Shown: piece after piece, positions 2,255 to 19,365 of the stretch
Position numbering within the stretch: position 1 is the stretch's first letter
Layout of the letters: every line of letters begins with the position of its first letter
Source: Gautieria morchelliformis
Taxonomy: Eukaryota; Basidiomycota; Agaricomycetes; Gomphales; Gomphaceae
Assembly (NCBI GenBank): GCA_015179125.1
Contig: WHVA01000011.1
Location: 310,001 to 374,000 of the forward strand
Direction: 5' to 3'
Length of the DNA: 64,000 bases
Notes under the pieces: model-generated
Seen by the model: only the letters and a program-made list of their open reading frames with translations
Database searches by the model: none
What the model was told of the DNA's origin: nothing
Made by a program: the position numbers and the translations under genes

Positions 2255-5200
2255 ATGCGGGACCTTACTCTACCCATCATACTACCCTGGACTCTGTTCT
2301 TTGGTACAGCGTTTAGTCTGCCATCAGCGTTCCCTACCTCTGGAAATGCGCTCTGGTACCGTACACCTGCCGTGGCCTGGTCCAAAGATTACCTCCCAGT
2401 TGGAAATGGTTATCTAGGCGCCATGGTTTCCGGAGGTACGGACATTGACCAGACGCAACTCAACCTGGAAAGTCTTTGGTCTGGCGGGCCGTTTCAGAAC
2501 GCTGTGCGTAGTCTGGACCATGAAGCCTTTCACAGATGTTCACAACCACCATAGTCTTATAATGGTGGAAATCATCCTGTATCTCAAGCCAGCGCCCTCG
2601 CGCAGGAGATGCAGGATATCCGCAAGAGCATCTTTGCAGCCGAAGGAGGGATCATCGACAGTGAGAATTGCCCTCCAGATTGATATCATCTCAGGAACCT
2701 GAGATTTCCGATTGAATTCAGGTATTGCTGGTCTGACAGAGCCGATCGATAATTATGGTTCGTCAGCTTTCAGCATATAGATAAACATAACCTGCATGTA
2801 TATGCAGGCAGTTACACGGCAGCGCCGTGGCTGTTTACCACTCTCAACACGAGTCAGGTTCAGAATTATGTACGTTGGCTCGACCTCGATTCTGGCATCG
2901 CACGTTCGACGTGGGACACAGACAATGCCACGTTCACTCGGTAAGGCCTGCTGTCACATTTTTGGAAGATGCTGACGGCTTTCTAGCGAGACGTTCTGTT
3001 CCTTCCCGTCTAATGCTTGTGTACAAATGACGAATAGTTCTTCCTCGGATCTCATGTCTCTCTCGTATTATTTCACGTCGGTTCCAGGGAACCCGATACC
3101 TCAAGTTACCTGTTTCGATAACTCTACACTCCAAGTCCGAGGTGCCGCCGGGGACCCAGGCATGCAATATGAAATTCTGGCACGAGTGCAGACTTCCCCC
3201 GCCGGCGTCGTAACGTGCAATTCAACAGCCAATGGAAACTCCACTGTGATTGTAACACACGCTGAAGCTGCCTGGATCACCTGGGTTGGCGGCACTGAGT
3301 TTGACCTTGACGCAGGCGATTCTGCCCATGGCTACTCATACAAAGGGGCAGATCCGCACGACGCTTTGGTATCTCTGCTTCAGAACGCTACTACAAGCTC
3401 TTATTCTTCCCTTTTGGGAGGACATACCAGTGACTATCAATCGGGCATGGGCAAATTCTCTTTGAGCCTCGGTCAAAGGCCCGATTTATCTCACTCCACA
3501 GACCAGCTTATGGCATCATATCAGACGGGTACCGGTAATCCTTATATAGAGTGGTTATTGTTCAATTATGGAAGGTACATGCTCTTTAGCAGTGCGAGGG
3601 GCGCTCTACCTGTGAACTTACAAGGCAAGTGGGGTCGAGACAGTGTCCAGCCTTGGGGCGCAGGTAAGCAGCATAATGGCAAGGTTGGCATGTGTTAACA
3701 ATATGTTTATGCGATAGACTATCGTATGTATGGATAATTGCCCACTTTTCCAACCGTTTGATCTTTGATCGTGCCAGATACCAATATCAACGTTCAGATG
3801 AATTATTGGGCTGCAGAGCTGACTAATTTAGACGTTCAGGACTCACTGTGGAATTATATGGAGGTGGGTACGCCCGTATATCCCTCGATGTGCCGTGAGT
3901 TCATTAATGCAGAAAAACTGGGCAACGAGAGGGGCTGAGACCGCTGGCATTCTGTACAACATTACACGAGGCTGGGTCACTCATAATGAAGTCAGTACGA
4001 GTGATTTCTCTGTTATGACAGAATTTTGACACATGATCACATTTACAGATGAATGTATGTTTGTGTGTTCCTTGTCTCATTCAGAACTAGAATAACATGT
4101 GTGGCAAGATATTCGGATATACAGGGATGAAAGGTGTGGATGGGACTGCAAGCTGGGCCGATTACCCCGAGTCAGGGGTCTGGATGGTTAGTGTCGAGTC
4201 TGAGCCTTGGTCAAATTCATCGTTAACAGTATGACCTCTTGGTCACAAATGGTTCAGATGATCCATGTATGGGATCATTTCGATTACACGAACGATGTCA
4301 ACTGGTGGAAGTCACAGGGATGGCCGTTGCTTAAAGTAAGCCGAGAATCTGGTTCGACGGGTTGGATTTACCCTGAAGCATCGACTCCAGGGCGTGACCT
4401 CATTTCATCTCGACAAACTCATACCGGACCTGCACTTCAATGACAATACCCTTGTTACTGCTCCATGCAATTCCCCGGAACAGACGCCCATTACCTTTGG
4501 TGCGTATTTGCAAAAGGAAAGGATGTGCCTAATCAGAAATTCTTTTAGGCTGTGCGCACCAGCAGCAGCTCATATGGCAGATGTTAAATGCCGTTGAAAA
4601 GGGATTCGAGGCGTCGGGGGATACTGATACCCAGTTCCTGGATGGTAGGCGCCTGGCTTTACTCTTCCGCTAACAACTGTTGTTCACGAGCGATGGACCA
4701 CAGAGGTTCGAGCGAAGAGGGCCCAGCTGGATATGGGTCTGCGTGTGGGTTCATGGGGGCAGCTTCAAGGTGCGCAAGGTAGCCCATTTTTGGCGCATAC
4801 ATTGATGAGATGCCCAAATAAATAGAATGGAAGATTGACATGGACCAGGAAACTGATACCCATCGGGAAATTGCACATCTCGTCGGTGTTTTTCCTGGCT
4901 ATGCTCTCACAAGCTATGCAGGGCAAGCCAACTACTCCAAGGATGAATTGTGGCAAGCCGCCCAAGGTACTTCTGAAAACCTACATTGCATTTAATAAGT
5001 CTATAAATGTTTTCAGTGAGTATCGTGCACCGTGGCAACGGGACCGGACCGGACGCTGATGCAGGATGGGAGAAAGTGTGGCGAGCAGCGGCATGGGCGC
5101 AGTTTGGTAACGAAAGCGAATTTTATACAGAATTAACCGTAAGCTTGGTGTTGAACTGCCATGAGGATGCTGTTTGACGATTTCCATCAGTATGGCATTC

Positions 5201-5633
5201 AGCGCAACTTTGGGAATAATTTGTTCAGCCTGTACGGGCCTCAGGAACCGGACCCTATCTTCCAAATAGATGCGAATTTGGGATATCCAGGGGCATTGCT
5301 TGTACGTCCTATTACGTCTCGGTGATGCCTTAGTCGCTGAAAGTCTCGCAGAATGGCCTTGTTCAGGCTCCCGATGTTCCATACCTGAATTCTACGTTGA
5401 TAATCACCTTACTTCCAGCCCTTCCCGATGCGTGGTCTTCCGGTAGCCTGAATGGCCTCCGTGTACGCGGTGGGATCACGCTTGACCTGCAGTGGTCCAA
5501 AGGTCTTGCCACTGGCGGATCGGTCGTCGTGGACAGCGTGGTGCGAGAGAGAAATGTGGGTGTGGTGTATCGCGGGAAGGGGATTGATTCTTTCACAACG
5601 CATGGTGGCATGACACGGAAGCTGCCGTTGTGA
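2255..5633 (+). CDS. Glycoside hydrolase family 95 alpha-L-fucosidase, secreted, 17 exons
   Basis: Predicted to release L-fucose from alpha-1,2-fucosylated glycans outside the cell. The ATG at 2255 opens a hydrophobic signal peptide (LPIILPWTLFFGTAFSLP), then the GH95 N-terminal pattern WYRTPAVAWSKDYLPVGNGYLGAMV. The exons are 2255-2503, 2555-2660, 2722-2757, 2808-2940, 2987-3663, 3778-3863, 3913-3990, 4049-4054, 4109-4186, 4258-4335, 4391-4499, 4549-4644, 4704-4769, 4826-4966, 5017-5138, 5191-5301 and 5352-5633. They join in frame to 817 codons, a normal family length. The family blocks NINVQMNYW, IHVWDHFDYTND, CNSPEQ (probable catalytic Glu region) and GPDADAGWEKVW are present. Apparent stops in the genomic frame all fall inside introns, so I read the gene as intact. 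Exon 8 is only 6 nt (Met-Asn). It stands alone, with the TPR-CHAT gene convergent downstream. Confidence 0.9.
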
Positions 5634-5868: not shown

Positions 5869-8800
5869 TCACCTCCCCATATGAATAAAGGGAACCCATC
5901 GTTTAAATGAAACCCCCTCGGAACGCAACTTGGCAACAGCAACATGGAGGGCTCGAGCAGCCTCTCTGGTATCAGGTCGAAAGGTATCTGTCACGGAAGG
6001 TCGGTTCTCTCTATAGAGATATTCATAGAATGCATCTGCAATCTTTGGACCATCCTCATCAGAAATGGACCTGGAAACAATCAGACACTGCACCTGGAGC
6101 TGACACGGTTCACTCACCACATCGTCGCAACAACCCCTCGAAAGCCGGCAAACAGCAGCGTCGAGGCAAGATGAATCGCCTCGTCGGGAAGAGTCTTGTC
6201 ACCCGTGGCAGTCTGGCACGCACCGAGGAAAGCTAGTTTTGCATTAGGTGTGGGCTGCTGCATTATTTTTGAGACCTTCAGGGGGCCGTCGTGTAGCATC
6301 AAGGAGCTCTCAAGCGGGTTCTCTGGATGTTGTTGCCCGTGACAGGCAAAATGGGCAATGGATGTGGTAGGAAGATGCGAAACAACCGCCTCAACTTTTG
6401 ACGACCTGAGCGTAATCAGATCCTTCATTGGCACATGTTTTTCTATCCGTAGCATCTCGTCAACGGTATAAGGAAGGCTGCTTTGGCCGGGTGTGTTAGG
6501 TTCAATGACCACCATCATCTTGAAGGGGTCAGAATTGGGCATGTCCGAGTCGCTAAGAAGCGCGCTGATGGTGGGTGTATATGACGAAACTACATGGTCG
6601 CAAACACACTCTGGCTCCCCAACATCGTAAATTCCAGCAGCGTGTATTGGAAGGAAGGCAAACGGCCCCGTGGGGCACCAACATAAGTTGGGTGGTGTAG
6701 CAGATATCTACAGCAGTGAGCTTGAGGAGAAAAACCTTGCTGAAATGACAACCCACACACCTCCAAACCCAGTGAGCATAGAACAGGTTTTACCACTGAT
6801 TGCCACAGCATGGCCAAGACTGTTTGGAAGTCATTAGGTCGTTCATTGATTCGAACCCGTGACATGTCTCGGCTCTCCCAGCTCTGCCGCATGAACTGTA
6901 GGGTAGTAGAAGGCAACATCTGTTGAAGAAGAACATCTACATGAGCGCGAGTAGATGCTGAACGGGCCAGATCTCGATGCCCTGGCGCAGTGGCAATTTG
7001 TATGAGATCCACGAGTGCATTCACATCAGCAAAACTCAGCGCCAGTGGCACATGCTGGACGCCATTCAATGTTAATACTAAGGCGGCGCAACCAGCTTCG
7101 CTTGCGTTGAGAATCACCACTGGTGCTTTGGCTGCAGCATCCACCAGTTTGGGGAGTCGCTGTGGGCGCAAAAAATCTTTAAAGGCTTCCAAGTCGCGTA
7201 TTTTTTCCAGGGTTTCCAACCACTCATCGTTGAGACGACGTAAACGAGCTGCCTCGCGCTCCATTGCCATCACTGTTTGTGGACTATCAGATATATCCTG
7301 TGACACATCCCGAAGCGAGCCCTGCTCAAGCGCGAGAGATATACGTCTTAGCTTTGCCTCAAGTTCTGGTGCCGATTCATGGAGGTCATCCATTGGTGTA
7401 CGGAGTTGCAATGCCTGCGACCAAAACACTGCACGGCCTTCTTCGAGTAGCTCGACAGCCTTGTCACACTGACCCGATCGAATTGCACAAGCAGCTGCCT
7501 CACGAGCCAAGCCATCACTACCGGATGTCAAGGCTTGTTGGCGAGAAGACAAATCCAAGCCGAGCATGGCTAGACGGGGAAGAAGTTCAATCGCAGCCTG
7601 ATATGCCTCCAAAGCCGAATCAGGCTTAGAATCTGCATGTCTTGCCCAGAGTTTGGCAGCATCTAAGCGTTGAGATGCAGGGGCAGTCTCACACGCTACT
7701 GCATCCCGAAATACATCCATGGCGGGGCCGAAATATTCTGATTTATCGGTGTGGGTGTATGCTCTCATAAAGGTGTCTCCAAGGTTTTTTGAATATAAGC
7801 AAGTTAAGGGATGGCCGGCATGAAGTACACGTTGTGCTTCGCGATGGAATGAAATCGCCGCCTCCAAGTCTTCTTGTTGACCGGATTGCTCAAATCGTCT
7901 TTTCAGCACATTTGCTAGATTGTTGAGGGACGTGGGTCGATAAGGATGTGGTGCCGGTCGCAGCTTGAGTGCCTCTCTATGGAACAAAACCGCCTTCTCC
8001 AAGTCTTCTTGTTGACCGGATTGCTCAAATCGTGTTTCCAGCACATTTGCTAGATTGTTGAGGGACATGGATCGATCAGGATGTGGTACCGGTCGCAGCT
8101 TAAGTGCTTCTTGATTGAATGAAATTGCCTTGTCTAAGTCTTCTTGTTGCCTAGACCGCTCAAATCGTGTCTCTAGCACGATTCCAAGGTTGTTGAAGCA
8201 CATTGAGCGGTCAGGATGTGGTGCAGGTCGCAGCTCCAGCGCTTCTTGATGGAAAGAAATTGCCTCCTCCAAGTCTTGATGTTGACCGGCCTGCTTAAAT
8301 CGGGTCCTTAGCGCGCTTCCGAGGCTGGTGAGGGATAATGGTCGATCAGGATGTGGTGCAGGTCGCTGCTCCAGTGCTTCTCGATGGAACGAAATTGCTT
8401 CCTCCAAGTCTTCATGTCGGCCGGACTGCTCAAAACGTACCTCTAGCGCGATTCCGAGGTTCCCGAGGGTCATGCATCGATCAGTATGCAGTGCAGGTTG
8501 CAGCTCAAGTGCCTCTCGATGGAATGAAATTGCCTCCTCCAAGTCTTCATGTCGACCGGCCTGCTCAAATCGGTTCATTAGCGCGCTTGCTAGGTTTCCG
8601 AGGGTCGTGAATCGGTCTGGATGTGGCACTGGATGCAGCTCGAGTGCCTCTCGATGGAACAAAATCGCCTTCTCCAAGTCTTCTTGTTGACCGGATTGCT
8701 CAAATCGTGTTTCCAGCACATATGCTAGATTGTTGAGGGAGGAGGCTCGAAGAGTATGAGGCGTAGGTCGCAGCTCAAGTGCCTCTTGAATGACTGAAAT

Positions 8801-9738
8801 TGCCTCATCCAAGTCTTCTGGTCGACCGGACTGCTCAAATCGTGTCCCTAGCACGATTCCGAGGTTGTTGAGGGACGTGTCGCGATCAGGATGTGGTGCA
8901 GGTCGTAACTTCAATGCCTCTCGATGGGACGAAATTGCCGCCTCCAAGGCTTCATGTCGACCGAAGTGCTCAAATTCTGTACATAGCATGACTCCGAGGT
9001 TGCTTAGGGATATGGATCGGTCAGGATGCGGTGCAGGTCGCATATCGAGTGCTTTTCGATGGAACTCAATCGCCTCCTCCAAATACTCGTGTTGACCGCC
9101 GTACTCAAATCTTGTCCACAGCGCATTTGCCAGGCTACCCAGCAAGGAGGATCGGTCAGGATGCAGTGTAGGTAGCATGTCAAGTGCATCTCGATAATGT
9201 GATATGGCAGAATCCAAGTCTTCCACTTCATCAGACTCGCTAAATTGTGTTTCGAGGGCCTCTGCGAGGGCAACGAGGAAGGCGACTTGATCAGAAAGCG
9301 GTGCAGGATGCACGACTGTGTCCCCCTGCGAAACAGTTCTCGCGGGCAGGTCTTCGCGGGGACCGGACTGGCGGCCCTGGTTAAACCGTTCTAGTAGATC
9401 ATGGACATTGATTTGAGATGTCGCCGATGGACCAGAATGTGTGACAGCGTGCAACTGGGACGCTTCTCCTAAGCCTTCAGTGTGGACAGGGTCTTGCTCG
9501 GGGATCTGACCATCCTGACAAAGCACTGATGTTAGCTCAGACCTCTCGGACAGCTTGTTGCGGCGTACAGGATGAAGGCGATCTCGCGGGTTTAGTTCTG
9601 AGGCGGTAGGTTCTGAGAGTTGTTCATCCTGAAATCATAAGTTGAACGTAAGCAACAGACCTTACCTTCCTTACGCTTTTTCACTGCTACCTGGCTACCT
9701 TCAGCTTCAGCTGCGGAGCGTTTTTTGCTTCCTGTCAT
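5869..9738 (-). CDS. TPR-CHAT protein (caspase-like CHAT peptidase fold with tetratricopeptide repeats)
   Basis: Model: exons 9738-9666, 9612-6761, 6707-6118 and 6070-5869 (1238 codons). The ATG at 9738 opens a short basic segment. An N-terminal linker follows, then about eleven 45-residue TPR-type repeats (roughly residues 148-642) with consensus EDLEEAISFHREALELRP, then a helical linker and a C-terminal CHAT domain. The CHAT dyad is intact: His in HFACHG (about residue 1098) and Cys in LGACQTATG (about 1139), followed by GFRGVVATMWSISD. CHAT is a clan-CD cysteine-peptidase fold related to separase and caspases. Bacterial TPR-CHAT proteins act as proteases in defence systems. The role of the many Agaricomycete copies is not known to me. 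The first exon is the least certain part. It converges on the GH95 gene, with 235 bp between the stops. Confidence 0.85.
7760..9244 (-). repeat. Eleven tandem 135-bp coding repeats (TPR array)
   Basis: Successive units start with the FEQSG-type motif exactly 45 codons apart and share long stretches at DNA level (for example near 7905, 8030 and 8695). A more diverged half-repeat precedes them up to about 9385. Near-identical neighbouring units suggest recent unequal crossing-over or gene conversion. Confidence 0.9.
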
Positions 9739-10830: not shown

Positions 10831-13062
10831 TTACCCCTCATGACCCCGGTAGTGGATCAGGTTCGGCATTTCTTCGTATACCGCCTGAAAATTCCGAGGA
10901 TGGTTAGCTGATGCAGACTAGTGGCAGCCAGATCAGCGAATGGCAACTCACCTCGCGATACAGTCCCTCGAATTTCATTCTCAACAAACACTTTCCCATG
11001 ACAGTTGTCCGCTTAGGATGCAGCCATGCGTCCCAAAGGCTACTACTTCTTGGCACGCGATCCTGCAGACTCCTCCTGACGATTGACCACCCACGTCCAT
11101 CATGGTGGAAGCCAAGGACACGAATGAGGCGGTGTAAATGGTTATGGATCAGAGTGTGATACAGTCGCCTCTCCGCATCATGGACGTCGGTAACAGCAAT
11201 GCAATGGTCTGGGAGTGTGTCCAGTGCTACACCCGTTGATGCGAAAAGAGTAGGGGCATGAATGCGCAGCCCGCCAAAGTCGCGGAAGACAAAACCGGTT
11301 AGCTCTCCAGTTACTTTGTTGAAGCGGGCGAGAGTATTTTGGCCATGCGCTTCGAACGCGATACCGTTTATGATCAATGGTGGAAGGAATGCATCGAAGA
11401 TCAAGTTGACGTAGCTGCCAATGAAAATAAGTTGCTAGCTCAAGGTGATAAGATTGGTGGAGCTTACCGTTCAAGAAACATGTGTTTTTTATCGACAGTG
11501 TCCAGCCCAAGGGCTGTGACAATAGCAGGTTCTTCCCCCGCCTTGTCCCCGTATCCGCTTTCTGTCAATGTGGCGGCAAGCACGACGTTCTCCCCGTTCT
11601 CCTCCCCATCATAAGCCTTCCTTATAATGGCCGTACAATGCTTTGCAATATCCGGATCGTTATGACAGTACACCGCACTCGCGACCTCCTCCTCGATGAT
11701 GAGAACCTGTCGATCGATGGCGAGATGTGGAACGATGTCACGGCCGAAACGTGGCCCGGCGTAGGCGGTAAAATGGGAGATAGTGCGTAAGGCAGAGGAT
11801 ATTTTCATTCCAATTGCTAGTTTCAACGTGAGTTCTGGAGAACACGGAAGTGTCAGCGTTCTGGGGTAAAATATGTTAATGATTGTAACAGTAGCCATAG
11901 CACGATACAATCACCTGATGCTAGCCTGTGCGGGTGTCGACACACTGAACTCTAGAGGCATGATGCTGATGTGTGGGAATTTGGCTATGATGTTCGGAAC
12001 CTGCAGCTCGTGAACGGGAAAGAGCATCCGATCTTGGTGCGCCTTGAGGGGCTTCGCTGCATTCTTTGCCGCATATTTCAGAAGTGGGGCTAGAAGCTCT
12101 TCGAAGTGGCCTTGGCTAGACAGGCAAGTACGCGGGATAGACACGAAGCGGACGCGAGGCTGATAGAAGTCATATTGACCAGGGGACAATGAAGGAAGTG
12201 GGGGGATTGTTCTTCGTGCGCGATGCATCTGCTCCGAAGGGTTCAACGGTGGTATATGCGGGGTATATTTGAACTAACAGGATGCGTTGGGTGACCTTCG
12301 ACCAGGGCCCTCTCCCATTCTATTCTCGTTGAGTTTAAGGTGGGACGGCGGGGACAATTCTCATACGCGTGTTCTTACAGGTGTTGTTAAAGGGATAGTA
12401 CAGTACTGAATCCCGGTTTTGAACTCACTTTGCCAGACGAAAGAACTTTGAAGCTCGTGAGCTATGGCATCCCTGATCGCAGGATTAAGCTGGATATTGT
12501 CCGATAATTTCTTCCATAAGTATTGTGGATCCATTGCCAAGGATAAAGTCGTGTGTTTGATGAAGTTATAAAATGGGAGAGACAGTAAATCTGTCTGAAA
12601 TTCGAGCTAATCATTAGGATAGTCAACCGACGAGTCATATCAACTACGGTCGAATGACAGCACCTTTAATACTGGCTCGAAGTTACGATCATCCCGGACG
12701 TCGTAGATCCAGGGTAACATGTCGAGCGGATCAACCAGACCAATCTCATTCACATGGTGGAGGTTCCCAGACGGGTTGAGAATGGGCGGAGTGCGTAAGG
12801 GTACAACGACGAAGATATCCGCCGGGCGGTATAGCTTTTTGAGTGGGACCGTCGTAGGCGTATATTTGCTGGAAAGAATAATGCAGGCACCGACGGAATT
12901 CGCAGACTGGATAGGTATAAATATGGCGCTGAGGAGACCCTCTGTGACGATGCATGCAAGGAGGCGAGAAGCAACTGCAAACGCGGCGCGGTCTGCACAT
13001 GATGTGAGTGAACCAAGCGGGGTCGCTGCAATGGCGAAAGATTGAGCGTTGGAGTGGCTCAT
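10831..13062 (-). CDS. NIS siderophore synthetase, IucA/IucC family (copy 1)
   Basis: NRPS-independent siderophore synthetases use ATP to join a carboxylate such as citrate to an amine or alcohol. Model: exons 13062-12664, 12594-12429, 12373-12279, 12228-11915, 11860-11468, 11414-10952 and 10884-10831, joining in frame to 627 codons. Family motifs appear in order: DPLDM near the N-terminus, EGHPTHP/MHRARR split by an intron (the canonical GHPxHP nucleotide-binding block), LFPVHELQVPN, SSALRTI, AFEAHGQNTL, RDFGGLRIH, and a C-terminal HNHLHRLIRVLG region like the FhuF-type domain. The first intron (donor GTGCTG) is the least certain. The exon layout matches copy 2, which is transcribed divergently. 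Substrate cannot be predicted from sequence alone. Confidence 0.85.
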
Positions 13063-13860
13063 ACGGCTGTATTTGAGGGGGCTATTTGGATGGAGACCAT
13101 AAGCTTAAATCACAATGGGGGGTTCGCTATGGCGTAAACTGGGGTGCAACTTGGGATCAGTACGCATCCACGGTCACGGGAGCGCGAGTATCGGGTATGC
13201 AGGAGGATGAGGCCGCTGGAAGGCGACAGGTAAAATATTTATCAAAGGGACTCGTGTTCTAAAAGGCATTACCTGCGCCCCTGCGGCGACCAAGACATTA
13301 TATAACCGGATATCAGATAAGATCATCAAGAGATCAATTAGACGCCATCTTTCGCGGAGTGCAGATTCCGAGCAGCTTTGCCGCTTTTCACCGTGACCCT
13401 ACTTAATCCTTTCACGTTTGTTCTCTGACCCACATCGACTGACACATCTGTGAACTTCCACTCACTCGTGAGTCTTTTTTGACCAAGGGTTTACCCCATC
13501 CTGTGCGTAAGGGTCAGCCGGATACAACGGAAAATCAACGAACTAAGCGTGGGCATGAGGCGTGCACCCACGAGATCAGATAGATGGTTGCTTTATTACA
13601 CAAATTACGGTATACCCGAGTCATGACCATATTGATCTCACCCGAAATCCCTAGGTGTCTTGAAGAGGGCCGAAAAGCATACGCCGAGTTTGCACGTCTA
13701 CTTCATCTGATCATAGGCCGTGTCTTCTTTGGGGAAGCCATTAGTCGGACGGTCTCCTTTCCCTCTCCCCCACACACGTCAGCGACTGTCTGTAATACCT
13801 GGCTTATTATTCACCTCTCCTCGTCTGCTTGGTCAATTCTCGTAGCCTGGTACTTGGAGG
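13063..13860. promoter_or_regulatory. Shared bidirectional promoter of the two siderophore synthetases
   Basis: These 798 bp separate the two divergent start codons and contain no supported gene. They hold one perfect ATCWGATAA site (13312-13320), a near match ATCAGATAG (13575-13583) and a TGATAA on the minus strand (13239-13244). Confidence 0.6.
13312..13320 (+). promoter_or_regulatory. Iron-type GATA factor site (ATCAGATAA)
   Basis: This is an exact match to ATCWGATAA, the consensus described for fungal iron-regulatory GATA factors (Urbs1/SreA/Sre1 group), which repress siderophore genes when iron is plentiful. It lies 250 bp from the copy-1 ATG and 541 bp from the copy-2 ATG. Function is inferred from the match and its context. 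Confidence 0.55.
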
Positions 13861-16175
13861 ATGTTATCTGCTTCCACTCTTGCACCTCCTGACCGTGCAT
13901 CTTTTGCCACTTTGTCGCGTCTTTTGGCATGCCTTGTCACAGAGTCTCTTCTTAAGGCCATTTTTTTAACGTGCCCCAGGCCTCAGTCGTACCTCGTTGG
14001 TGCTGCCATTATATTACATGCCCATGCCAGCAAGCATGAAGGACCTTACTTCCCAGAGGATGTCTTCGCAGTCATCCCTCTCCGCCACATGCCCATATTC
14101 CAGCCCAGAAGTGACACTGAGATTGGGCTCCTCGACCCTCTAGACATGCACCCGTACGTGTATGAGCTCTTGGATGTTGTAAAATCGGACGACAGTCATG
14201 AAATTCAGGCACGTTACCAATATCGCCTATGTCCTTAGTGTTCAGGCTGATCTGGCGGTTCAAGCCTGTCAAGCATCTGTCCCAATGTGCGCTCGACAAG
14301 GCCGACGTCCTCAGTTCGAGGCTAGCAGATTCGGAAGCAGGGAATTTTGTCCGGTCTTCTTCGTCACCCATCCCGGATGATGGACCTTCCACTCAGGCCC
14401 GAACGTCCTCCTCGTGGGTGGATCAGTTTCGCCTGGCACTTTCCCAGATTATTTCAGGCACTACCCATGCGTCACTCACGCTTACTCCTGGCCCACTTCA
14501 TCTGTGGAAAAAGTTTGCGGACGCAATCAATATTGACGAAGACATGCAGGAGGCGGTGGCAGAAGAGCTTAGGAGCTCCGTCGCATGGCAGCGTAAATTA
14601 ATTTCCCCCACAATCCAACGTCACTGACGAGTCATGCACAGAGTACACCTATGAAAATTCTCCCCAACATGCCCCTGTATTTGGGTCTCCAAGCATTGCA
14701 TGGGAGCAATGTATCATAGAAGGACATCCTACCCATCCCGCGAGTCACTTCTAATGGTATGCCATACGCCCAAGTACTCACATGTCCAGTGTTAGATGCA
14801 CAAGGCTCGCCGAGCGATGCTTCCTATCCCGCCAGTTCATCCAGGTGACTACGATTGGCAGCACCCGTTGATCCGCCTCGTTGCTGTTCCACGAGCAAGC
14901 TTATACATTCAGGGCGCTTGGGATGATCTCATCGCCCCATTTTGTGAAGCTGCAGCTAGGAACGCAGCCAGGCCCATTGCCATTCCCGAGGACCATACGC
15001 TTATTCCGGTTCATGCTCTTCAGATACCAAATATACTGGAGAAGTTCCCCGACACAATTTTGCTCTCCAAAGAGTATCACGTCGAAGCCCTCGCCCAGCA
15101 GAGTCTAAGGTATATTTCACCATTCTGAGATTCAGTCTTGCGTGCTGACTACCGCAGGTCGGTAGTCGTACCTTCAGCACTACACGCACACACCTTCAAA
15201 CTCGCGCTTGGGGTGCGCCTTACATCTGCTATGCGCACTATCTCCCCGCCATCTGCATTCTTGGGTCCGCACTTCTCTAGAGAAGTTGTCCCGCGGCTTA
15301 CCTACGACCGGGCTCTACTCGTCGTGCAACGCGAGCTCGCAAGCGTTTCTCACAGACATTCTGACCACGAGATTGCGAAGCATCTAGCGGGTATCGTGCG
15401 TGAAGCGTATGAGAACACTTGTGCAGACCATGGCGAGTGTGCTATTGTGTGCACTGCCCTGGTGGAAACAGCATATAGTGGCGAGGCGGAACTCCCATTG
15501 GTGCAATTGCTATTCGGACTTGATACTGAGGAAAAGCGAATAGCATGGCTTGATACGTGCGCAACTCTCTTCATTCTGTCATCCATTTCTAACGTGGATC
15601 CCTCCACTAGATTTGTCGATGTGTTCTTCAAAGCATTTCTTCCCTCAGTCATCGTCAACGGCGTTGCCTTTGAAGCACACCCACAGAATACGCTTGCGCG
15701 CTTCGACATGCAGACTCGCGAGCTGAAGGGCTTCGTCATTCGCGACTTTGGCGGCCTGCGTATCCATCCACCTACACTGGTTGCGTCCACAGACCTCCAG
15801 ACACTCGACGGCATCATCAAGCCAGGGCATTCTATCATCGCGGAAACGCTCGAAGAAGTGTATACACGACTGTATCATACTCTCATCCACAATCATCTCC
15901 AGCAGCTTATTCGTGTGCTGGACCTCCATTATAATCGTGTAGGCTGGCACATCGTACGGCGTCGGCTAAGTGAGCAGATTCCTGATGGTCATGAGTTGCG
16001 CAAGTTATGGCTCAGCCCAGAGAGCGAGACATTGCCAGGAAAGTCCTTTGTGCGCATGAGGCTGCAGGGGATGTATCGCACTGTGAGAGTTATAATTCTC
16101 ATACATGACAGATACACTGACACATCGCAGCATTTGCATGGCCCATTCCCGAATTTAATTCATTACAATTCGTAG
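13861..16175 (+). CDS. NIS siderophore synthetase, IucA/IucC family (copy 2)
   Basis: Paralog of the divergent copy 1. Model: exons 13861-14178, 14265-14592, 14642-14739, 14796-15109, 15158-15556, 15611-16082 and 16131-16175, 657 codons in frame. Only the first intron is doubtful. Motifs: DPLDM, EGHPTHP/MHKARR across intron 3, LIPVHALQIPN, SAMRTI, AFEAHPQNTL, RDFGGLRIH, HNHLQQLIRVLD. Two oddities: intron 3 (14740-14795) seems to use a GC donor where copy 1 has GT, and AFEAHGQN of copy 1 reads AFEAHPQN here. The introns at 15557-15610 and 16083-16130 are multiples of three without stops, so they can be mistaken for coding, but alignment to copy 1 shows they are introns. The product would be a cytosolic siderophore-forming enzyme. 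Confidence 0.85.
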
Positions 16176-16746: not shown

Positions 16747-16798
16747 CTAGCTTCGTGTATACCTGCTAGCTTCGTGTATACCTGCTAGCTTCGTGTAT
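16747..16798 (+). repeat. 19-bp tandem repeat ending at the transposase start codon
   Basis: The unit CTAGCTTCGTGTATACCTG occurs at 16747-16765 and 16766-16784, with a partial third copy at 16785-16798. The last copy runs into the transposase ATG (16797), so the array forms the 5' leader or core promoter. Confidence 0.9.
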
Positions 16799-18140
16799 GG
16801 ATCCTAGAGTCTCTCACGGATCCGTCCGAAACAGAAGAGCGTCTGAAGAGCTCCAGAGACGTAGAGAACTGACACGAAGGGTCACTCTATATACGCTCAC
16901 GCACGCAATGGCCGCAACAGGATTGTACTACACAAACTACATAGAAAGGCTCCCACTCCATACTTCAATATTGTCAGGATGGGGGTGGGTGAAGGAGCTC
17001 TTAGATGGCCACCCACAGCGTATCAAAGACCAATTAGGAATGCACAAACATGTGTTCCTCAAGCTCTGTTCCGAACTCGCAGACAAAACCGGCCTCGGGC
17101 ATACACGCCATGTTTCAATAGAAGAACAGATTTCTATTTTTCTATATACGGCAGTAACCAATCTCTCTAATAGGAAGATCGCAGAACGCTTCCAACGAAG
17201 TGGGGACACCATTTCGAAGTACGCAGCCCCAAACCTCTAATAGATTGGGAACTCATAGCCTAGTCTTAGGTGCTTCCATAGAGTCCTTTCCGCCCTTGCT
17301 GCTGCCGAGTTCTACAAAGTCTATGTTCAGCTTCCAGATGGAAACACCGCACTTGCTGAGGAGATTGAAAGCAATCCAAAGCTCTTCCCATATTTCAAAG
17401 ACGCACTGGGAGCCATTGACGGTACTCACCTGGATGTTCGTCCACCCCTTGCAGACAAGGCTCGTTACCGAAACCGAAAAGGAACCCTGACTCAGAATGT
17501 GCTTGCCGCATGCACATTTGATCTACAGTATTGCTACATCCTTGCAGGCTGGGAGGGTAGTGTGTATGATGGTGCTATTTTTGAAGATGCTCGGTCCCAC
17601 AACTTGAAGATACCAAACGGAAAGTATTACCTTGCTGATGCCGGTTTTGCATCATGTGATGTACTTCTGGTGCCATACCGAGGAGTCCGGTACCATCTTA
17701 GAGAATGGGAAGCAAGTAAACATAAGTCAGTGTTTCATTCACCCATATATATGTCAATTAATTACCTGGATAGACCAGAGAATTACAAAGAATTATACAA
17801 CCTGCGACATGCATAGGCCCGGAATGTCATTGAACGTATATTTGGAGTCTCACAAAAGCGATTCAAGATGCTGTGCTATGCCAATGAGTATCCTATTGCC
17901 ATACAAGGGTGTCTTATTCATGCACTTTGTGCTCTGCACAACTTTATACGTGTTTATGACATTGACGACACGATAGAATGGGACTTCGCCGAAGCAGATC
18001 ACACATCCACGAGTGGGCAAGGGTATGATGAGGTTACAGGCGTTACACGAGTGGAAACCACAAGGGCTGCCCTTAGGCGTGATGAGATTGCAGAGAAGAT
18101 GTGGGAAGACTACCTGGGAGAAAGGTCCCGGCGCGAGTAG
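16797..18140 (+). pseudogene. Harbinger (DDE_Tnp_4-type) transposase with a premature stop
   Basis: The transposase would cut and paste the flanking element. Exons 16797-17218, 17270-17725 and 17774-18140 join in frame and give a standard Harbinger protein. An N-terminal helical region with a HTH-like segment (NLSNRKIAERFQRSGDTIS) is followed by the first catalytic Asp in GAIDGTHLDV and the second in YYLADAGF, then the NVIERIFG block that holds the catalytic Glu. An in-frame TAG at 17814-17816 lies just before this last block, after LRHA. Translation would stop before the third catalytic residue, so this copy should be inactive. A CAG-to-TAG transition is the simplest explanation. The rest of the frame to 18140 is open, implying recent inactivation. 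Confidence 0.85.
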
Positions 18141-18154
18141 AACTACAAGTTATC

Positions 18155-19365
18155 CTAGTATGCCCCAAATAGAGCTGCCCGAGTACCAATCTCTTCACTA
18201 ATCTGCGCATTGAGCCAGAGTCGCCTCCGAGGCTTGTTACGCATGGCCAGGTACATGTCAGCCGCCGCAGTGTTGCGCATAAAGATATCTGCTACAATAA
18301 TGACCTCAGAATCGGCAAGCCCCTCCTCTTCATCCTCCACCAGCTGCATGGCCTTGGTCTTACGCACCGGTGATGCTGCGAGCGCCAAGGAGCTGCCTTC
18401 GTTCTGTAGAGCGTATGTCATACCTGTAATCGCTGTGCTCATTGCAAACATGGCATCCGCGCCAGATTTCCGTACACGTTTGGGTCCTGGCTTCATCGTT
18501 GTTGCAGCCTTGCATTTCTTATTAGATGTTGGGCCGGGAGCAACCTACGAGTATTACGATGCCATGCCATGCAGCCACAAGACGAGTGAGAGGGGGATCA
18601 GGGAGATGGAGACGAGAGAGAGAGAGGTGCAAGGGAGAGACAAGGGTGAGTACCTAGTGGATAATCATAGATCGGCTCGGCTCACCTTTTCGTCACTTTC
18701 CTCCGCGCTACTGCTCTCATCAATACATTCCCCATCCCGTCCAGAGTCTTCAGGCTCTGGCTCATCGTCATCAATGGTATTGGGGCTCGAACTATTGCCT
18801 CTGAAAACGCCGGCACCCGTGGCGATTATCCCATCCACGAGTTCGGCCATGGTATCATAGAGCGGAAAGGGTTTTTTTTCGAAATGGCTTGGCCTTGGGA
18901 TGAGCCTTTGCATTGTCAATACATTATCACAGTAGATACTGAAGATAATAAACTGCATACCTTCAAATAGACATCCCATACCTCCACCGGTGCTGTGACA
19001 AGCTTTTTGCCGTCGTTCCAGCCAAATCCGGACTGCGAACGAAGCTTCTGGACAATCTTGTATTCCCCCTTAAGCTGTGTGGTATTACTGAGGATAATAA
19101 AGAAAAGAAAAGAAACGGCACTCACTCGTTGCCAGCATGTCTTGCAATGCCCAACGGCCTTCGGTACAACCGGTCTAAACTTACCTGCTAATCCAAGTAC
19201 GACCAGAGTCCATGTAGCGGCTTTCCAGCCGGACTCAGCTTGAACTCCATCCTGTCGTGCCTTGAGGAGAATGTCGACAAGTTCTGCTTCTTCTTGCGCA
19301 GTCCACTCGGCGGTCTCCTTTTTCGGCGGCTTTGCAACTAGAACGACTGGATTGGGCTCGGCCAT
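18155..19365 (-). CDS. Myb/SANT-like DNA-binding protein of the Harbinger element
   Basis: This is the usual second Harbinger gene, whose product helps the transposase bind the element ends and enter the nucleus. The ATG at 19365 precedes a SANT/Myb-like trihelix block (ETAEWTAQEEAELVDILLKA, then SGWKAATWTLVV with a CW-containing third helix). The rest lies in further exons: about 19078-18966 (YKIVQKLRSQSGFGWND, VEVWDVYLK), about 18890-18690 (FEKKPFPLYDTMAELVDGI with an acidic DDDEPEPED tract) and a last exon ending at 18155 with a basic PGPKRVRKSG stretch and a C-terminal helical region. I did not see a disabling mutation, unlike in the transposase. Exact splice positions of the middle exons were not verified. 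Confidence 0.75.

Follow-up and report, generated by a model that had tools for sequence, protein, structure and literature searches.

Genes for siderophore synthetases that work independently of nonribosomal peptide synthetases (NRPSs), here called NIS synthetases, have been described in several mushrooms. We compare with them a divergent pair of such genes, NIS-A and NIS-B, in Gautieria morchelliformis (assembly GCA_015179125.1; 122 Mb, 1113 contigs). The pair lies in a stretch of 64,000 nucleotides, referred to below as the window (positions 310001-374000 of contig WHVA01000011.1, labelled C113 in our analysis). According to the parts of the published descriptions available to us, to which all citations here refer, core NIS genes are adjacent in Coprinopsis cinerea and Hypholoma sublateritium and are split between scaffolds in Stropharia rugosoannulata, in which both clusters are expressed in mycelium (PMC8874372). 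By the totals reported for five Agaricus bisporus and two Pleurotus ostreatus strains, each of seven contigs has two core NI-siderophore genes (PMC11942895). Two NIS clusters occur across Armillaria and its relatives in the Physalacriaceae (PMC10700112); an African Armillaria strain has two as well, for which expression at the protein level could not be proved (PMC12973365). The other fungal NIS enzyme relevant here is Rfs of Rhizopus and Mucor, which is encoded by several exons in Rhizopus (PMC9226013, PMC10700112). Basidiomycete NIS genes have been listed repeatedly by annotation pipelines, and in the literature searched, as far as its text was available, we met no assignment of a product to them.

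The NIS gene pair of G. morchelliformis is real and intact, and pairs like it have been described from other mushrooms. The sequence-only reading of this DNA had regarded such a pair as unusual for a basidiomycete, a view that finds no support: the pair is not of a new kind, because basidiomycete NIS genes and Agaricales pairs are already in print, with pairs or clusters for Coprinopsis, Hypholoma, Agaricus, Pleurotus and Armillaria (PMC8874372, PMC11942895, PMC10700112). The Agaricales pairs, compared here by description, resemble NIS-A and NIS-B in that two NIS synthetase genes stand together in a mushroom genome. For the Stropharia pair the description names the domains PF04183 and PF06276, both of which are found here (PMC8874372). 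Armillaria Clusters 1 and 2 have the same domain order as NIS-A and NIS-B, and Cluster 1 genes have 6-10 exons against seven here; the Armillaria clusters differ in having one NIS gene each, except for Cluster 2 of A. novae-zelandiae, in which, as in our locus, two NIS copies are predicted (PMC10700112). What the present analysis adds is a set of common introns, an iron-repressor site accompanied by an FTR1 control in the same genome, and a decayed third copy; the most important of these is the iron-repressor site. We consider it probable that the locus comprises two intact paralogous NIS synthetases under one shared Fep1/Sre-repressed promoter and yields a rhizoferrin-like carboxylate siderophore. 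The genes, their family, active-site boxes and ancestry, the site and the repressor gene are observed, and from these we infer the repression, the substrates and the product.

The two divergent seven-exon genes fill exactly positions 10831-16175, the ends being their stop codons (10831 for NIS-A on the minus strand and 16175 for NIS-B on the plus strand). Spliced models were made from splice signals and frame continuity, and neither has an internal stop. NIS-A (10831-13062, minus strand) encodes 631 amino acids in exons that run, from 5' to 3', 13062-12664, 12606-12429, 12373-12279, 12228-11915, 11860-11468, 11414-10952 and 10884-10831; its six introns are all GT-AG and 50-67 bp long. NIS-B (13861-16175, plus strand) encodes 671 amino acids in exons 13861-14194, 14239-14592, 14642-14739, 14796-15109, 15158-15556, 15611-16082 and 16131-16175, with an uncertain junction between exons 1 and 2, for which three solutions keep the frame (657, 671 and 677 amino acids). 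The third NIS-B intron (14740-14795) is GC-AG and the NIS-A intron at the same position is GT-AG. Both genes are intact. That they might be degenerate pseudogenes is a thought raised by decayed NIS-A copies on another contig, C748, and we regard it as very improbable: all seven exons of each gene are open, the splice sites are workable and the motifs conserved, and the decayed copies are located elsewhere, not at the pair.

Both products are assigned to the NIS synthetases because they exceed the curated Pfam cut-offs for IucA_IucC (PF04183; E = 7.2e-24 for NIS-A and 2.1e-29 for NIS-B) and for FhuF (PF06276; 7.1e-17 and 3.6e-13), in all four matches, well beyond chance, and with PF04183 preceding PF06276 within one chain. 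The profile search thus bears out the family named in the sequence-only reading, as do the boxes that it had listed for a divergent gene pair: GHPTHP, S-x-x-R-T, HxQN and RDFGG are all present in the spliced products, as GHPTHP, SALRT/SAMRT, HGQN/HPQN and RDFGG, in identical order. On the minus strand, the NIS-A boxes are encoded at 12279-12296 (GHPTHP), 11779-11796 (SALRTI), 11336-11353 (EAHGQN) and 11270-11284 (RDFGG); the NIS-B boxes, on the plus strand, are at 14722-14739 (GHPTHP), 15225-15242 (SAMRTI), 15672-15689 (EAHPQN) and 15741-15755 (RDFGG). We take these boxes to be nucleotide- and carboxylate-binding. For comparison of single residues, seven bacterial NIS proteins, drawn for variety of organism from six of 60 listed plasmid matches, were aligned with the C-terminal parts of both proteins. 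NIS-B keeps 22 and NIS-A 21 of the 29 columns that are invariant among the bacterial proteins in the aligned part, including G-H of GHPxHP, S-x-R, K, E-x-H-x-Q-N and D. Among proteins of solved structure, sequence comparison brings up AsbB for both (7e-6 for NIS-A, 1.5e-4 for NIS-B) and DesD for NIS-B alone (9e-4).

Between the two genes lies a shared intergenic region, a bidirectional promoter region of 797 bp (13063-13860), of which 13064-13860 is single-copy in the genome. It contains ATCAGATAA (13312-13320, plus strand), the sole exact match in the window to the SreA-type consensus ATCWGATAA, and a one-base variant of this consensus, ATCAGATAG (13575-13583, plus strand). The 181 bp around ATCAGATAA are likewise single-copy. 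At the genome density (4251 sites in 122 Mb) 0.028 exact sites would be expected in 797 bp, and 0.019 from shuffles of the window, against one observed; two of the three ATCWGATAR sites of the window fall inside the intergenic region (P = 4.6e-4 if places are random). ATCWGATAA is the SreA consensus, with which the in vivo sites of orthologues in the basidiomycete Ustilago (sid1) and in S. pombe comply (PMC2610380), and the element has also been reported in the Mucor rfs promoter, a likeness to the NIS pair (PMC9226013). As far as the text of the literature searched was available, we found no mention of an iron-repressor site common to a basidiomycete NIS pair. As a positive control, the FTR1 iron permease gene of the same genome has three exact ATCWGATAA sites upstream of its first frame, about 110-340 bp before the likely start (P ~4e-7 for a 400-bp stretch picked after seeing the sites). 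The genome also encodes a protein with two GATA fingers flanking a cysteine-rich block, CPGDGRCDGTGGTSACAGCPTYNN, which we take to be the Fep1/Sre layout, with a cysteine-rich block as in Fep1/SreA. The locus therefore combines the two features looked for in an iron gene under Fep1/Sre control: its promoter carries ATCWGATAA, and a Fep1/Sre-type repressor gene is present in the genome. The pair is probably iron-regulated, and since it consists of two paralogous, divergent NIS synthetases that are probably regulated in this way, a role in siderophore biosynthesis is likely.

The genome-wide count of 4251 ATCWGATAA sites is about twice that of a reversed-pattern control (1966), and many of the places listed are opposite-strand pairs about 270 bp apart. 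An interspersed repeat carries two ATCAGATAA sites, inverted relative to each other and with this same spacing, and two examples of it (C1:64285-64753 and C1:188334-188809) are 92% identical over 466 bp. Because such pairs recur and these two examples are so alike, the repeat contributes to the genome count; it inflates it and could scatter GATA sites. The ATCAGATAA site of the window was checked and is not part of this repeat.

We propose that a single promoter region, shared by NIS-A and NIS-B, drives them in opposite directions. In iron-replete cells, binding of the Fep1/Sre-type GATA repressor to ATCAGATAA in this region would silence the two genes, and iron scarcity would allow the transcription of both. 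At the expense of ATP, each enzyme would then convert a carboxyl group of its polycarboxylic acid substrate, most likely citrate, into an adenylate and couple it to an amine, perhaps a diamine like putrescine, which would yield a rhizoferrin-like carboxylate siderophore. With an iron-repressor site at the pair and an FTR1 control in the same genome, a simple test of this scheme is possible, and the link to iron is a reason to seek carboxylate siderophores in mushrooms.

Several observations weigh against this proposal. A lone exact match in a single promoter carries modest weight (P ~0.03 by itself), and the test was not blind, the consensus having been thought of while the sequence was read. 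Exact ATCWGATAA sites are also present at places without an evident iron gene, such as the coding copies on C748; those outside obvious promoters (two on C748, two on C504 and one in an NRPS stretch on C693) were not counted as support. Conversely, a 9.9-kb stretch of contig C433 (L037), which covers the upstream end of an NRPS locus and several kb beyond, is free of the exact motif, so not all candidate iron genes are marked by it; the stretches L016 and L017 are without it as well. Among the active-site residues, a second S-x-R-T box, invariant in the seven bacterial proteins, reads QASIRT in NIS-A and QQSLRS in NIS-B, the latter with a change of T to S. In those neighbouring stretches that were scanned, we recognised no transporter, P450, reductase or further tailoring gene; the scan took in all six frames between 18 and 33 kb, four of the six between 1 and 6.6 kb (one of these on the minus strand) and 18 of the 24 listed frames of at least 200 residues, and lay outside 9.6-10.8 kb, 16.2-16.8 kb and short exons past 33 kb. 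Finally, the best NCBIfam model for both proteins is FslA of rhizoferrin synthesis (5.7e-14 for NIS-A and 2.1e-14 for NIS-B, far under its cut-off), and FslA was also the top model for all ten bacterial or archaeal loci tried (from the 80 described below); no more than three NIS models appear at all. For these two reasons, the match says little about the substrate.

A citrate-based, rhizoferrin-like product is accordingly put forward as plausible, though weakly supported. With FslA under its cut-off and non-discriminating, this assignment leans mainly on a published tree (PMC10700112) rather than on the present analysis. Compared with the bacterial type A' enzymes (FslA, and SfaB/SfaD of staphyloferrin A), the likeness is that sub-threshold FslA match, and the difference lies in low identity and in a tree position that is unsupported in depth. 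A scan of genome contigs with patterns from the N-terminal region found no relatives; a second, with an alignment that included the seven bacterial proteins, confirmed at least 359 loci, of which 80 were kept. The pair shows 22-30% identity in best segments to these 80 bacterial or archaeal loci, and NIS-B 21-27% to the seven aligned bacterial rows. When NIS-B was compared by tblastn with 72,556 plasmid records, 95 matched, none covering 80% of the query. So great a distance from the bacterial enzymes, together with the lack of a recognised partner transporter in the stretches scanned, would suit NIS-fold ligases that make an amide other than a siderophore; we hold this to be improbable, for the iron-repressor site and the FTR1 control tie the locus to iron.

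NIS-A and NIS-B share 46.5% of their residues across 606 aligned positions; five of six introns occupy the same alignment column and phase, whichever of the three NIS-B models is used. From this combination of identity and intron sharing, the two are, by sequence comparison, old paralogs derived from duplication of one intron-bearing gene. A tree was built by a quick method from 89 assembled rows, reduced to 88 by removal of one locus (L115), with rows of 760 amino acids or more trimmed to their last 700 residues. In it the pair forms one clade (SH-aLRT 100) on a long stem, and the common introns and single clade argue for duplication rather than two separate gains from bacteria. The comparison with bacterial NIS enzymes called for by the sequence-only reading thus supported the unity of the pair and left its placement loose, the joining point of the stem having a support of 38 for its neighbours among rows that are bacterial or archaeal and include none identified as FslA, LbtA, Rfs or SfaB/SfaD. 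A third PF04183/PF06276 locus in the genome, on contig C748, holds decayed NIS-A fragments of about 88% DNA identity. It was considered as an additional NIS gene and rejected, the fragments being in several frames and partly inverted, with nearly all of exon 1 missing. At C748:78500-88300 there is a large inverted duplication of a coiled-coil-like gene, with arms of about 1.8 kb and 94% identity, that encloses the decayed fragments in both orientations.

Comparative features bear on whether the paralogs would share a pathway or function in parallel. The sequence-only reading had suggested that they perform successive condensations on a single citrate core, like paired bacterial NIS enzymes, which would give an unsymmetrical product. 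Such a division of labour would fit the retention, intact and side by side, of old and non-identical paralogs (46.5% identity), their common intergenic region with an iron site, and the pairs reported in several Agaricales (PMC8874372, PMC11942895). Two enzymes are, however, not a necessity, since Rhizopus Rfs alone makes rhizoferrin (PMC10700112, citing Carroll 2017) and the Stropharia genes are on different scaffolds (PMC8874372); Lentinula, in the published text available, has two clusters with a single core gene on each contig. We therefore think successive action rather unlikely. Rfs, set beside NIS-A and NIS-B by description, differs in being a single sufficient gene with a known product (PMC10700112). 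In parallel function, which we rate at somewhat below an even chance, each protein would be a complete Rfs-like synthetase, with NIS-A drifting to a different amine or under weaker constraint. This would agree with the longer end branch of NIS-A (0.75 against 0.34 for NIS-B, in a quick tree with a long stem), with its lack of about 45-55 linker residues of NIS-B (from the alignment, in a part where the NIS-B junction is uncertain) and with the nearly equal retention of invariant residues (21 of 29 and 22 of 29); the retention of pairs in several mushrooms, as far as the published text goes, argues against simple redundancy. Going further, one might picture a self-contained mushroom iron module, with one Fep1/Sre-controlled bidirectional promoter, a two-step unsymmetrical citrate siderophore, no dedicated transporter or tailoring enzyme, and a duplication independent of the bacterial two-enzyme pathways; this we consider quite unlikely as a whole. 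Of the dedicated, duplicated siderophore locus first suggested for this DNA, the duplication stands and the siderophore role is likely. Among the partners of Armillaria Cluster 1 (ABC transporter, P450, methyltransferase, C2/MRP and Frag/DRAM), none was recognised here in the stretches scanned (PMC10700112).

On the NIS-A side, a GH95 gene was found by domain search (matches at 2351-5523). A GH95 gene is also near Armillaria Cluster 2 (PMC10700112), and its place beside the NIS genes in both is possibly old synteny. An uninterrupted minus-strand frame of 1014 residues (6590-9634) encodes a protein with many TPR repeats. Right behind NIS-B, within 16770-19090, DDE_Tnp_4 transposase frames (one at 17.3-17.8 kb) are followed by a minus-strand Myb/SANT match (about 19.0 kb), an arrangement that recalls a PIF/Harbinger transposon. 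Further domain matches are to an alpha-kinase (near 22.7 kb), a serine hydroxymethyltransferase (near 26.4-27.2 kb and beyond) and WW (near 29.2 kb), and a Copia-like element occupies 39.8-43.4 kb.

Elsewhere in the genome there are seven NRPS condensation-domain matches on four contigs. NRPSs with several condensation domains lie at C433:32988-40186 and C693:237435-241622, and a piece at the start of C297 (11-1081); in the stretches examined on C433 and C693, an MFS-like transporter frame, judged by eye, lies beyond the NRPS. These NRPS loci are candidates for a ferrichrome-type route. The ornithine N-oxygenase family has five matches in the genome, all above the cut-off of 21.3 bits but spanning only about 100 of 339 positions, with a best score of 33.3 bits; the family also matches in 12 of 14 control genomes. 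DUF6533, presumably an essentially Agaricomycete family, lends indirect support to the basidiomycete origin: it has 637 candidates in the 122-Mb assembly, and all 150 that were scored match.

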